From a virus: a stretch of 24,298 nt of DNA. Position 1 is the first letter of the stretch. Each line of letters starts with the position of its first letter. Location: IMG/VR virus record IMGVR_UViG_3300024301_000093, positions 1 to 24,298 of that record. The stretch is one strand, 5' to 3'. Positions 16,484-21,495 of the stretch are shown piece after piece. The position numbers and the translations under genes were made by a program. The notes beneath the pieces are model-generated. The model had not been told where the DNA came from and did not search any database. It saw only the letters and a program-made list of their open reading frames with translations.

Positions 16484-16500
16484 GTTAGTGCGCCACTAAC
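16484..16500. promoter_or_regulatory. GTTAG element copy 1 (perfect dyad)
   Basis: GTTAGTG-CGC-CACTAAC, extended by TT and AA on the two sides. It lies about 50 bases upstream of the -35 of the plus-strand promoter and upstream of the minus-strand promoters, a place where one protein could affect both directions. Confidence 0.8.
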
Positions 16501-16585: not shown

Positions 16586-16607
16586 ACTGGCGGCGAGAAC
16601 CACCAGT
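16586..16607 (+). other. 5' leader hairpin of the first plus-strand gene
   Basis: ACTGGCGG (16586-16593), loop CGAGAA, CCACCAGT (16600-16607) with one C-A mismatch. It starts at about the predicted transcript start. The 11 bases at 16592-16602 (GGCGAGAACCA) are the exact reverse complement of 18149-18159 in the leader of the operon starting at 18250. Confidence 0.5.
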
Positions 16608-16644: not shown

Positions 16645-17151
16645 ATGCGTACATTATCTAATGACACTATCAAGAAAGTAGCAAAGGCAATTGAAACCAC
16701 AGTTCGCGCCGACGTTGCGCGAGGCGCGGCCCTTGATCTACTTGTTGCCGATGGATTCGACAAGGTATCAGACTACGTTAGTCCCAAGTCCAACGGCTCC
16801 ACATGTGAGCCCGACGAATGGGAAGCGCTGAAGGGCGCCGTCATTATGGGATTCAGTAAAACGGTTCAGTCCATACTCGATACGCCAACTAAGGCCCTTG
16901 ACGACGTTAAGAAATCCGATAAGCGATACTGGCAGCAACAAGTAAACGCCCGCATCGCGGACTTCAAACGACAACTTGCCAAACGTGAGGCGGCCGAGGA
17001 ACGCGGCGCATCGCGTACTAGGACACTGGCAGAATGGTTCACGGACTTTGCGAACGATGGCGAGAAAAAACTGCGCAATGCGGAGGAATGCACGTTCGAT
17101 ATCTTGCCGGTGCTCAAGATGGTTCAGGAAATAAAACGACTTGTTAAGTAA
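16645..17151 (+). CDS. Unknown plus-strand protein, 168 aa
   Basis: This is the first gene of the rightward arm, closed by its own terminator, so it is expressed as a single-gene unit from the promoter at 16550-16578. The start has GGAG about 9 bases upstream. The chain is helical and charged (MRTLSNDTIKKVAKAIETTV, RADVARGAALDLLVADGFDK), with an aromatic/basic helix KSDKRYWQQQVNARIADFKR then QLAKREAAEERGASRTRTLA and an end IKRLVK. There is no known domain, signal peptide or membrane helix. Position, separate control and basic helices would allow a regulator or DNA-binding role, perhaps for the GTTAG elements. That is speculation. Confidence 0.75.
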   Translation: MRTLSNDTIKKVAKAIETTVRADVARGAALDLLVADGFDKVSDYVSPKSNGSTCEPDEWEALKGAVIMGFSKTVQSILDTPTKALDDVKKSDKRYWQQQVNARIADFKRQLAKREAAEERGASRTRTLAEWFTDFANDGEKKLRNAEECTFDILPVLKMVQEIKRLVK

Positions 17152-17416: not shown

Positions 17417-17486
17417 CGCCTAAAATTTGGCGATGCCAGTTACTGATATAGCGCGGAGCCACGCGGCACGCGTGAACAAGTAATAT

Positions 17487-17503
17487 GTTAGGTACACACT
17501 AAC
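17487..17503. promoter_or_regulatory. GTTAG element copy 2
   Basis: GTTAG-GTACA-CACTAAC in tandem unit 1. The left arm departs from the dyad at positions 6-7 while the right arm keeps CACTAAC. Confidence 0.75.
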
Positions 17504-17560
17504 AAGTTGATGCCAGTTATACGTATAGCGATGAGCCATGCGGCGCACATGGCTCATAAT

Positions 17561-17577
17561 GTTAGTGTTACACTAAC
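17561..17577. promoter_or_regulatory. GTTAG element copy 3 (perfect dyad)
   Basis: GTTAGTG-TTA-CACTAAC in tandem unit 2, three bases after that unit's own 10-bp stem-loop. Confidence 0.8.
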
Positions 17578-17639
17578 AAGTTGATACCAGTTATATGGAT
17601 AGCGATGAGCCACACGTGCGCTGTGTTAACAAATAATAT

Positions 17640-17656
17640 GTTAGGTACGCACTAAC
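17640..17656. promoter_or_regulatory. GTTAG element copy 4
   Basis: GTTAG-GTACG-CACTAAC in tandem unit 3. It differs from copy 2 at one base. Confidence 0.75.
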
Positions 17657-17709
17657 ACGTCGATACCAGTTATATGGGTAGCGCGGAGCTGCATGGCGCA
17701 TTATCTGGG

Positions 17710-18065
17710 TAATGTTCGTAATGTTCGCTTTAATGTTCGTAATGTTCGCTTGTTTTTAGCAAGTTGCGTACATTATGTTTTTGTGGCATTCAATTAAGGT
17801 ATTTGCAGGAGCGCGACTAAACGTGCCTATCGAGAAATGTAGTATCTTATCTAATAATAATAATAATAATAAAGTTCGTTTTATATATATATAGAGCGAT
17901 TCTGGAAAATATAAGTAAATCATTTTGTATTTTATTTGTTCGTTCTTCCTTTCCCGCGGTTTTCAGATGCTCTCTCCTCACAAAAGCGAACATTAGAACT
18001 TTACTTACATTTCAATAACTTACTTGCGAACATTAGCCGAACATTACCCCCTAAAAACGAACATT
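17710..18065. other. Candidate replication origin or operator array: inverted iterons around an A/T-rich core
   Basis: AATGTTCG occurs at 17711, 17720, 17732 and 17741, the last two being part of a perfect 21-bp tandem duplication (17710-17730 and 17731-17751). Its reverse complement CGAACATT occurs at 17987, 18027, 18038 and 18058. Most copies carry an outer T/A, giving TAATGTTCG. Between them lie seven TAA triplets (17852-17872), a TATATATATA run (about 17882-17892) and generally A/T-rich DNA. Repeated binding words bracketing a low-melting core is a layout of iteron origins. The right set also lies directly upstream of the promoter at 18093, so an activator or repressor site is the alternative. 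No gene is supported on either strand here. Confidence 0.6.
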
Positions 18066-18092: not shown

Positions 18093-18121
18093 TTGACATA
18101 GTTCACTACATTTGCTATAAT
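18093..18121 (+). promoter_or_regulatory. Perfect-consensus sigma-70 promoter of the AAA+/VWA operon
   Basis: TTGACA (18093-18098), 17 bases, TATAAT (18116-18121). Both hexamers and the spacing equal the bacterial consensus. Transcription would start near 18128, inside a GTTAGTG half-site (18129-18135). It drives the operon from 18250. Confidence 0.9.
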
Positions 18122-18130
18122 ATTACAAGT

Positions 18131-18188
18131 TAGTGGGGATTCGTCTGTTGGTTCTCGCCTTATCCATAAGTTGCAGCGGTCCCCACTA
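18131..18188 (+). other. 5' leader stem-loop of the AAA+/VWA operon
   Basis: TAGTGGGGA (18131-18139) pairs perfectly with TCCCCACTA (18180-18188), closing a 40-nt loop at the very 5' end of the predicted transcript. The loop carries TGGTTCTCGCC (18149-18159), complementary to the leader of the 168-aa gene. Confidence 0.6.
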
Positions 18189-18249: not shown

Positions 18250-19146
18250 ATGGAAACTTTAAACGCACCATCACACGTATCTACACCCTCCATTGCCTCA
18301 AGTGCAATGTTAGTAGAGTTAAGTATCTCAACATGGACTGGCCGCAAGTTAGACAAGCGTGCATCGTCACAAGTTACCGCAACCCACGGTGCAGCGTCCG
18401 GTGTTGCCAATGTCAACAAGAAACTACTTGGTGACTGTGATGAGCTCACAGCCGTACAAAAGTTCACCGCTAACGTGCGCAACCTACACTACGGCATGAC
18501 GATGCCTTGGTCAGATACCGGCCTCCGACTACTGCCGACCGCACAATACTTCAAATACAACGAGGCAATGACCGCCGTGCAGGATGAGTATCGCCGCATG
18601 GTAGATAACTTTCTCCGTGCATATGACTGGGAAATTAGCCAAGCGCAGGCCAAGCTGGGTGAGTTATTCAACCATGCCGACTACCCGACTGCCGAATCTA
18701 TCAGACGTAAGTTTAGTTTTCGGTTCTCATATATACCGCTGCCTGAAGCAGGTGATTTCCGTGTTGACGTAGGCAACGAGGCTACGGCACAAATAACGCA
18801 GCATTACAAGTCATATTATACGTCGCAGCTGGAATCTGCCATGCGTGACGTGTGGCAACGGACATATACCGCGCTATCTAAAATGTCAGAGCGGCTCGAC
18901 TATGCCGACGACACACACAAAAAAGTGTTTCGCGATTCATTAGTATCTAACGTGCTCGACATGGTAGAACTGTTGGACGTGTGCAACGTGACGGGTGACT
19001 CGCAGATGGCGGCACTACGCGCCAAGCTCGACGATACCTTGCGGGGCGTTACACCCGACGCGCTACGTGACGACGTGTACTTGCGTGCACAGACTAAACG
19101 TGCAGTTGATGCCGTCATCGCGCAACTTCCCTCGCTTGACGTGTAA
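18250..19146 (+). CDS. DUF3150-like protein, partner of the AAA+/VWA pair, 298 aa
   Basis: The N-terminus has LVELSISTWTGRKLDKRASS (residues ~21-40). This resembles the [LV]SIW[ST]G[RK]K opening of DUF3150 proteins, which are often encoded beside CobS-type ATPases and VWA proteins on plasmids and phages (recalled; not searched). The middle has RNLHYGMTMPWSDTGLRLLP and YDWEISQAQAKLGELFNHAD, then FSFRFSYIPLPEAGDFRVDV; the C-terminal third is helical. No catalytic motif is seen. The ribosome-binding site is GGAGAACGAT. Being the first gene of the operon with the ATPase and VWA gene following suggests a shared complex, with this protein as substrate or adaptor. The family call is moderate. Confidence 0.6.
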   Translation: METLNAPSHVSTPSIASSAMLVELSISTWTGRKLDKRASSQVTATHGAASGVANVNKKLLGDCDELTAVQKFTANVRNLHYGMTMPWSDTGLRLLPTAQYFKYNEAMTAVQDEYRRMVDNFLRAYDWEISQAQAKLGELFNHADYPTAESIRRKFSFRFSYIPLPEAGDFRVDVGNEATAQITQHYKSYYTSQLESAMRDVWQRTYTALSKMSERLDYADDTHKKVFRDSLVSNVLDMVELLDVCNVTGDSQMAALRAKLDDTLRGVTPDALRDDVYLRAQTKRAVDAVIAQLPSLDV

Positions 19147-19187: not shown

Positions 19188-20288
19188 ATGACTACCACAA
19201 ATACCGCAACAACTATGTATGCACTCAACCTTGACCAGATCGCCACCGCCATACGTGTGGGTGGACATAACCGCACGGTGCTCGTGCAGGGCCACATGGG
19301 TACGGGCAAGTCGTCACTGCTACGCACACTTGCTGACGAATTACCGCAACATACCCCGTGTTACTTCGACTGTACGACTAAGGACCTCGGTGACATATCC
19401 ATACCCAAGCTGGCGACACTGGACGATGCCGATTACGTTTCATATGCGACTAACGAGGAGCTCGGTGCTCACCTCGACAAGCCCATCATCCTCATGGTCG
19501 ATGAGTACGGCAAGGCTAACCCCGCCGTGAAGAACTCACTGTTACGACTCATGCTAGAGCGTAAGATCGGTAGTTACACACTGCACCCTGACTCATTAGT
19601 ATTTGCGACAACTAACCTCGGGGCCGAGGGTGTAGGCGACCTGTTGCCACCACATGCACGCAACCGCATAACAGTGCTAACAGCGCGCAAACCTGACAAT
19701 ATGGAGTGGATAGAGTGGGGCATAAACAACGGCATCGACCACACACTGCTCGGTTGGTGTAAGGACAACCCGCACTTGTTCCACGGATTCGAGAGTGTTC
19801 CACGGCCCGATGACAACCCGTATATATACCACCCGCAGCAGCAGCGGACGGCGTTTGTCACACCACGATCACTCGAAGCTGCCTCCGACTGGCTCAAGCA
19901 GCGTGAGAACTTCGACGACCAGACCCTGACAAGTTTACTTATGGGTACTATCGGCGACCGTGGGGCCATGGACCTGATGGCGTTCGTGAAGCTGGCTGAC
20001 CAGCTGCCGTCACTACAGTCTATCAAGGACTCACCAGCGACGGCTAAGGTGCCTGACTCCTCCGCTGCCGTGTGTATGGTGGTGTACCGGACACTTGCGA
20101 CAATCGGTGCCGACTGGGTAGACGCGTGGATGGAGTATATGAACCGGCTCGACAAGGAAGCGCAGGGTATGTTCGCTAACGGGGTACGCGCACCCAAGTA
20201 CGCCCACCAGAAACTTGTTATGACAAACCGCAAGTTTACCGAGTGGGCCATGCAGAATAACTATATGTTCGCCGCTGATAAGACGTAA
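19188..20288 (+). CDS. CobS/MoxR-type AAA+ ATPase, 366 aa
   Basis: Walker A is GHMGTGKSS (residues 35-43), Walker B is IILMVDEYG (100-108), sensor 1 is FATTN (139-143) and the arginine-finger region is HARNRI (156-161). The rest of the AAA+ lid is followed by a helical C-terminal part. The segment YFDCTTKDLGDISIPKLATL after the first helix is where CobS/MoxR proteins place their pre-Walker-B inserts. Members work with VWA proteins to remodel or insert cofactors into partners (CobS-CobT, NorQ-NorD, RavA-ViaA). The VWA partner is the next gene. All ATPase residues are present, so it should be active. The ribosome-binding site is GGAGAACGACA. Substrate unknown. Confidence 0.85.
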   Translation: MTTTNTATTMYALNLDQIATAIRVGGHNRTVLVQGHMGTGKSSLLRTLADELPQHTPCYFDCTTKDLGDISIPKLATLDDADYVSYATNEELGAHLDKPIILMVDEYGKANPAVKNSLLRLMLERKIGSYTLHPDSLVFATTNLGAEGVGDLLPPHARNRITVLTARKPDNMEWIEWGINNGIDHTLLGWCKDNPHLFHGFESVPRPDDNPYIYHPQQQRTAFVTPRSLEAASDWLKQRENFDDQTLTSLLMGTIGDRGAMDLMAFVKLADQLPSLQSIKDSPATAKVPDSSAAVCMVVYRTLATIGADWVDAWMEYMNRLDKEAQGMFANGVRAPKYAHQKLVMTNRKFTEWAMQNNYMFAADKT

Positions 20289-20316: not shown

Positions 20317-21495
20317 ATGTTATCTATAGGTAAACAACTCACACCAGAACAACGCCTGTCTAAAGCTGTTGTCGACATCATGGGTAATCCGCAGTACGTA
20401 GCACTCGCAGGCATACTCATGCTGGGTGACCGCAGGGTAGACGACACCGTACCTACCGCATGTACTAACGGACGTGATGAGTTATATGGCCGAGCGTTTA
20501 TCGACAGTCTTAACGACGCAGAGTTACGGTTCCTTGTACTGCACGAGAGTTATCACAAGTTATACCGTCACCTCGTTACATGGCGACACTTGCACGATGA
20601 GAATGCGCAGTTAGCAAACATGGCGTGCGACTACGTTATCAACTGTAAGATATCAGACGATAACTCTAACGGGTGGGCTAAGATGCCAGACGGCGGCTGT
20701 TTAGATTTTAAGTACCGTGGCTGGGATAGCGCGCAGGTATTCAACGATCTCAAGGAATATAACAACTCACCAGATGGTGGGGGTGGTGGCACACTCGACG
20801 ACCACGACTGGGATGGTGCCGAAGAACTTACCGAGGCAGAACAGCGTGAGCTTGCACGGGATATCGACGAGGCCATACGTCAAGGTGCGTTGATCGCAGG
20901 TAAGCTGGGCAACGGTGCAGACCGTGACATAGTCGCACTACTCGAGCCGCAGGTAGACTGGCGTGAGGTGTTGCGAGAGTTTATCCAGAATACTTGTGCG
21001 GGTAGTGACTACTCCACGTGGAAACGACCGAACCGCAGGTTTATATCAGGTGGTTACTACTTACCCTCCGGTATATCAGAGCAGGTAGGAGAACTTGTTA
21101 TAGCCGTTGATACGTCCGGTTCGATTGGGCAGGTAGAGCTGTCGTCATTCCTTACCGAGGTCAAAGCGATATGCGATACCGTGCACCCCGATGCCGTACG
21201 GTTACTCTACTGGGATACTAGTGTGCGCCAAGACGAGAAGTATGACATGCACCAGCTGGATAGCCTTGTCACGTCGACCAAGCCCAAGGGTGGCGGTGGT
21301 ACGTCCGTTACATGTGTACCCACTTATCTTGCCGAGCACGGCGTCAAACCCCAAGCGGTTCTCGTACTCACCGATGGCTACTTAGGTGGTGAGTGGGGCC
21401 GGTGGGCGTCCCCCGTCCTCTGGTGCATATTGGATAACAAGTCAGCACAGCCGACTGTTGGTAAACACGTACACATTAAATCAGGAGATATGTAA
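20317..21495 (+). CDS. VWA protein with N-terminal metallopeptidase-like domain, 392 aa
   Basis: The N-terminal domain carries LRFLVLHESYHKLYRHL, an HExxH zinc site (His76, Glu77, His80), followed by ANMACDYVIN (Asp105 a candidate third ligand), as in the DUF2201 putative metallopeptidase family. A Gly/Asp-rich linker (residues ~150-165, with GGGGG) follows. The C-terminal VWA-like domain has a full MIDAS: DTSGS (265-269), GGTSV (Thr329) and LTDGY (Asp353). In bacteria such VWA-metallopeptidases pair with MoxR-type ATPases; here the ATPase gene is directly upstream. Peptidase activity is inferred from motif only. The stop overlaps the next ATG by one base. Confidence 0.85.
   Translation: MLSIGKQLTPEQRLSKAVVDIMGNPQYVALAGILMLGDRRVDDTVPTACTNGRDELYGRAFIDSLNDAELRFLVLHESYHKLYRHLVTWRHLHDENAQLANMACDYVINCKISDDNSNGWAKMPDGGCLDFKYRGWDSAQVFNDLKEYNNSPDGGGGGTLDDHDWDGAEELTEAEQRELARDIDEAIRQGALIAGKLGNGADRDIVALLEPQVDWREVLREFIQNTCAGSDYSTWKRPNRRFISGGYYLPSGISEQVGELVIAVDTSGSIGQVELSSFLTEVKAICDTVHPDAVRLLYWDTSVRQDEKYDMHQLDSLVTSTKPKGGGGTSVTCVPTYLAEHGVKPQAVLVLTDGYLGGEWGRWASPVLWCILDNKSAQPTVGKHVHIKSGDM

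Follow-up and report, generated by a model that had tools for sequence, protein, structure and literature searches.

A probable PICI-type replication origin beside the early promoter of a marine tailed-phage lineage

The word array and its position

We consider a 24,298-nt stretch of viral DNA (IMG/VR record IMGVR_UViG_3300024301_000093, positions 1-24,298), which we refer to at its full length as the window. These 24.3 kb come from a tailed phage; the terminase, portal and capsid genes read leftward and an early operon, encoding a DUF3150 protein, a MoxR-type ATPase and a DUF2201 VWA protein, reads rightward from a promoter at 18093. Our subject is an array of short repeated words next to that promoter, which is probably a replication origin of the kind known from phage-inducible chromosomal islands (PICIs).

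The word AATGTTCG occurs eight times in the entire window, where 0.69 copies are expected, and all eight fall within 17711-18065; none of 100 shuffled sequences gave eight copies. Four forward words come first, followed by an A/T-rich core and then by four reverse words. The left iteron set (17711..17748, plus strand) has its words at 17711, 17720, 17732 and 17741, with spacings of 9, 12 and 9, and is covered by a perfect 21-bp tandem duplication (17710-17751) that accounts for these spacings. The right set (17987..18065) carries the same word on the minus strand at 17987, 18027, 18038 and 18058. An initial annotation of this DNA had listed the words in two opposed sets and had traced the left-hand spacings to the duplication, and a count over the whole window reproduces its positions exactly.

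The core between the sets (17852..17900) consists of a (TAA)7 run at 17852-17872, which that annotation had also found, and alternating TA at about 17882-17894; we regard it as a candidate duplex-unwinding element. Beside it lies a degenerate word, AAAGTTCG (17871..17878, plus strand), which appears as TATATAATGTTCGTTTT in relatives. A second degenerate word, CGTACATT (17767..17774, minus strand), lies just right of the left set, and some relatives have an exact reverse word (CGAACATTA or AGAACATTA) in its place. As had been claimed, no gene separates the sets, in the sense that the interior holds no conserved gene and the open reading frames listed there are short. The promoter predicted at 18093 is likewise borne out: directly right of the array, at 18093..18121 on the plus strand, stands TTGACA-17-TATAAT, a 12/12 match with an extended -10 element. 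This early promoter is kept in the consensus of the relatives, in which the right set runs on as AGAACATTAC words until about 45 bp before the -35 element.

Conservation and geometry of the array in relatives

Hundreds of sequences related to the DUF3150 gene are present in IMG/VR (341 stretches were found, and 80 kept in one search), and the array statistics below were computed on a sample of 61 non-redundant loci. The initial annotation had proposed looking for the repeated word in phages of the same gene order; in dozens of such relatives the word, the opposed orientation and the A/T-rich core are all kept. Most relatives have words of the AATGTTCG type ahead of DUF3150, and certain distances within the array are fixed: the last left word and the core word beside TATATA are separated by 130-131 bp in many of them, and in one subgroup the right side has fixed distances of 115 and 50 bp. 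Among the 61 arrays, the forward word lies left of the reverse word in 1135 of 1194 pairs.

Spacings between words of the same orientation pile up at 8-12, 19-22, 30-33, 40-44, 50-53 and 60-63 bp. At a period of 10.5 bp their vector strength is 0.66, compared with a null maximum of 0.14, and it is still 0.65 after identical spacing sets are collapsed. Since the spacings fall on multiples of 10.5 bp, the words lie on a common face of the helix. Within 1.5 kb on either side, the least stable 60-bp segment falls inside the array in 52 of the 61 loci, usually in mid-array, even though the array makes up only 12% of the stretch searched; in the window's twin, L009, this minimum lies at 0.44 of the array span.

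In nearly complete relatives the words cluster almost only at the array (9 of 10 in genome G002, 9 of 9 in G003). In L057 and L254, where words near DUF3150 are scarce or lacking, the array is found 2.0 and 2.9 kb upstream, and no array was recognised in L153 and L154, whose DUF3150 identity is 42-46%, or in some truncated contigs.

Concerted change of the word

The letters of the word differ among phages while the layout remains the same, the classes being AATGTTCG, AATGTTCT, AATGTTCC, AATGTTAC, AAAGTTCK, ATTGTTCC and AATATTCG. For example, L078 and L079 have DUF3150 proteins that are 96% identical, but the nine words scored in L078 end without exception in CC and those of L079 in CG or CT. 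A word that switches in concert while its layout is kept is the mark of a binding site, and we therefore take the words to be putative sites for a trans-acting protein that co-evolves with them.

One natural exchange is particularly clean. Between genome G042 (L283, AATGTTCC) and its counterparts G043 (L284) and G047 (AATGTTAC) the origin region has been replaced, with 56% identity between words in the comparison with L132 (equivalent to G043). The domain of a small early protein that we call HTH105 has also been replaced (64-68% identity), whereas the backbone is about 95% identical, PrimPol, the replicase described below, 89-90%, and most early proteins 92-99%. The protein p307 changed likewise, although it evolves fast everywhere. 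In this pair, the origin region, HTH105 and p307 have apparently been exchanged as a group.

The replicase and its cassette

In relatives, a region about 9-15 kb into the early operon encodes PolA, a PD-(D/E)XK nuclease, an SNF2 helicase, HTH105 (a small HTH_17 protein), a protein resembling single-stranded DNA-binding protein (SSB), and a replicase. The replicase, of about 950 aa, joins an archaeo-eukaryotic primase (AEP) domain to DUF927 and is referred to here as PrimPol-DUF927, or PrimPol. It is present in 33 contigs, and all searched contigs that lack it end within 15.2 kb downstream of DUF3150; the window's own phage presumably encodes it as well.

A PrimPol profile searched against the PDB matches SaPIBov1 Rep (8tch, E=4.2e-16) and SCCmec Cch (5dgk, E=1e-12). 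In an AlphaFold2 model of the replicase (mean pLDDT, the predicted local distance difference test score, 67), residues 392-959 align with Cch (5dgk) at Z 21.0 and with SaPIBov1 Rep (8tch) at Z 19.5, and residues 23-227 align with the PrimPol of phage S-2L at Z 18.5. The alignment of the helicase part has a root-mean-square deviation of about 11 Å over multiple domains, so that domain placement is unreliable. SaPIBov1 Rep and SCCmec Cch, to which the helicase part is homologous, are related to self-loading, iteron-binding initiators. Distant homologues of PrimPol-DUF927 occur in Rhizobium and Pseudomonas phages (MN988463, 42227-45310; OR577172, 32945-35917), annotated as 'putative integrase' or 'hypothetical'.

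Candidate readers of the word

Within PrimPol, residues 881-960 show the strongest association with word class (r 0.35, corrected for overall divergence), and the primase domain shows none.

HTH105, a protein of 77-105 aa co-encoded in the early operon, matches the family HTH_17 (E=1.4e-7). Its structural matches (6ama, Z 5.7; 6amk, Z 5.6; 4j2n, Z 6.1) lie below Z 8 and speak to the fold only; as modelled, this is a winged helix-turn-helix (wHTH) fold of excisionase/MerR/BldC-type topology. When HTH105 was used in a sequence-profile search of the PDB, no significant match emerged. In 22 genomes, HTH105 distance and word class are uncorrelated (r 0.04-0.06, not significant in a Mantel-type test). 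One HTH105 column separates the AC word class (AATGTTAC) perfectly, but column matches overall stand at the level of an odd-one-out control. For HTH105 as sole reader there is, then, one natural swap, set against the Mantel-type and column tests, and we do not adopt it.

The HTH105 proteins (L157:286-603 and homologues) have an acidic C-terminal tail, D-x-D plus usually a hydrophobic residue. Residues D102 and D104 are invariant in an 18-sequence alignment, and most copies end in D-x-D. The tail is reminiscent of the SSB-type tails that recruit replication proteins.

Surroundings of the array

The first gene of the early operon, DUF3150, occupies 18250..19146 on the plus strand, followed by the genes for the MoxR-type ATPase (19188-20288) and the DUF2201 VWA protein (20317-21495). 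Upstream of the array, at 16645..17151 on the plus strand, lies a 168-aa gene of no known family; most relatives keep it at this place next to the array, with protein identity falling to about 25%. The loop of a hairpin in the DUF3150 leader (18145-18159) is complementary to a hairpin at 16592-16606, just upstream of the 168-aa gene. About eleven relatives pair 10-14 nt there, in at least five other letter combinations, and some others lack the pairing. These pairings suggest that two early mRNAs make a conserved kissing contact, RNA to RNA.

Immediately left of the array, at 17432-17704, stand four copies of a tandem unit of about 75 bp, GATACCAGTT...TAGCGCYGAGCC; the units alternate with palindromes and are retained left of the array in relatives. 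The palindromes belong to a family, TTAGTG-N3-CACTAA, found near almost every early-gene start, with nine copies of at most two mismatches where 1.2 are expected. The exact form occurs at 16485, 17562, 18201, 19151 and 22745, and forms with one or two mismatches at 17488, 17641, 20290 and 21640. In other phages the letters differ and the palindromy and position are kept (GTAGTCCGTGGACTAC, GTAGTGACTCACTAC, TTAGGTAATTACCTAA, TTATACGCCGTATAA); these are possibly phage-specific operators or RNA hairpins.

A nucleotide search of cultured phages gave no match to the window, and neither did an Rfam search. For the terminase, relatives in Pelagibacter phages and in phage DSL-LC04 reach 46-49% identity. 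Contig G001 (L089, L092), of 62,372 bp, repeats its first bases from 61810, exactly for at least 100 bp and up to 562 bp to the end; given this terminal repeat, it may be a complete genome.

Discussion

We favour the view, already put forward in the initial annotation, that the array is a replication origin, now with a replicase in relatives that is homologous to iteron-binding initiator helicases. Specifically, it is probably a PICI-type origin, carried by a marine tailed-phage lineage and abutting the early promoter. We infer that replication initiates at the array and that the replicase, rather than the co-encoded wHTH protein, reads the words. Most likely, the phage's own PrimPol-DUF927 replicase would bind the iterons with its C-terminal domain. 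Two assemblies of the helicase would then load from the two iteron sets and melt the core between them, and forks would start from the melted core, the fused AEP primase laying down primers and the phage PolA carrying on synthesis. Regulation of the adjoining promoter could coexist with origin function.

PICI origins always consist of two iteron sets flanking an AT-rich region (PMC6092414), and sit just 3' of rep. The array has this arrangement of facing sets, which until now has been reported from small virus satellites alone. The likeness to SaPIBov1 and the E. coli PICIs (PMC6092414) extends to an initiator helicase homologous to SaPIBov1 Rep, present in relatives of the same gene order, and to the fusion of primase and helicase, which in PICIs and Staphylococcus aureus pathogenicity islands (SaPIs) occurs sometimes. 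Unlike those elements, however, the array belongs to tailed phages of about 60 kb, uses another word, lies about 13 kb from the replicase gene and stands beside an early promoter, and the phage replicase has its AEP primase fused ahead of the DUF927 helicase. Given the shared layout and homologous helicase but the different position of the replicase gene, we conclude that the array probably works like a PICI origin, as a variant and not as a member of the satellites. SCCmec Cch includes DUF927 (PMC7581432), and the helicase and C-terminal portions of the phage replicase can be superposed on it; SaPI Rep recognises iterons via its C-terminal domain, as does Cch2, which binds direct-repeat iterons, three of which are reported (PMC7581432). 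In contrast to the phage array, Cch and Cch2 belong to staphylococcal integrated elements with far fewer iterons and a separate primase.

A comparable plan is known from phage P4, in which short iterons form two clusters, at ori and crr, and the initiator alpha is a primase-helicase that binds the origin through a C-terminal domain. P4 alpha is not of the DUF927 type, and any relationship to the phage replicase would be putative.

Several observations weigh against this interpretation. The array lies about 13 kb upstream of PrimPol and not just 3' of it, and the window ends before the replicase gene. For iteron binding via the C-terminal domain there is a weak sequence association, and MoxR windows associate with word class more strongly (0.45); clade structure therefore remains a confounder for the PrimPol C-terminus, which as sole reader is suggestive only. 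The cleanest natural swap, G042 versus G043, changed HTH105 (64% identity in its HTH domain) more than PrimPol (90%), over a backbone of 95%. The cumulative GC skew, proposed earlier as a check, has a local minimum in four relatives of about 60 kb (G001-G004) that agrees with an origin, but this minimum falls among the early genes, at 2.1-3.2 kb from the array, and the change of coding strand confounds it. Finally, the searched cultured phages with a distant PrimPol relative contain no comparable exact-word array (48.9 of 60.9 kb of RHph_TM29 was covered, and Rollin gave only a mixed-orientation repeat). Nor did a de novo search of Rollin and parts of RHph_TM29, DSL-LC04, HTVC023P and Pag-Yong1 yield a comparable opposed array around an A/T core. 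We accordingly retain both the PrimPol C-terminus and HTH105 as candidate readers, one or both of which may act, possibly together.

An origin that depends on DnaA was considered and rejected: DnaA boxes (TTWTNCACA) are not enriched, with 2 in 64.7 kb of upstream regions against about 3.9 expected, and form no cluster.

The array might instead, as the initial annotation allowed in proposing a symmetric operator array, be a cooperative operator or activator of the 18093 promoter, at which a regulator, most plausibly HTH105, polymerises head-to-tail, bends the DNA and tunes its own operon. The right set does abut a conserved sigma70 promoter, and the G042 swap altered both the origin region (56% identical between words) and HTH105, with most early proteins staying at 92-99% identity. 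HTH105 resembles excisionases and BldC (Z 5-7), and BldC forms head-to-tail filaments on direct repeats of 9 bp (PMC5859096), close to the 9-bp unit of the array. The wHTH oligomers formed by BldC and Xis (PMC5859096, PMC11963761), which share the HTH105 fold, are known as transcription or excision factors; unlike them, HTH105, whose DNA binding is putative, sits in a replication cassette and mostly carries the acidic tail. Moreover, an operator alone leaves unexplained why the left set lies about 390 bp before the promoter, why the melting minimum falls between the sets and why the sets converge, and HTH105 follows word class neither by distance over the 22 genomes (r 0.04-0.06) nor, the one column that splits the AC class apart, by column matches beyond the control level. 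We judge this explanation unlikely.

Far less probable still is that the words are host LexA (SOS) boxes on the early promoter. The alphaproteobacterial LexA consensus is GTTC-N7-GTTC, which the commonest same-orientation spacing, 11 bp, would produce; but spacings of 8, 9, 10, 12 and 20-21 are common too, the word reaches AAT on its 5' side, and the alphaproteobacterial consensus may not be that of the host. Whole lineages of the AC class, moreover, use AATGTTAC, without GTTC, in the same layout, and on this ground we reject LexA boxes. Clustered repeats in a noncoding region can also act as parS-type sites, and the array could thus be the centromere-like partition site of a phage-plasmid. 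We give this just as little credence: the cassette holds replication enzymes, the early proteins scanned include no ParA- or ParB-like protein, and an A/T-rich melting core is not a feature of centromeres.

If the array is indeed a PICI-type origin, a broader picture can be offered tentatively: a widespread marine phage lineage with such origins, in which concerted replacement of the iteron word defines replicon types particular to each phage, perhaps as a result of conflict with satellites, rival phages or origin-targeting nucleases. Initiation may be linked to the early promoter by two co-evolving readers, one being the C-terminus of the replicase and the other a filament-forming protein like BldC. 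The association of a helicase homologous to SaPI Rep and Cch with this origin layout in a large, free phage lineage bears on where satellite replicons originated and on their relationship to phages. A marine group without a close cultured member in the searched phage collection thereby gains a specific probable origin, candidates for its initiator and some six word classes provided by nature, and these classes make the specificity between initiator and iteron testable by exchange.
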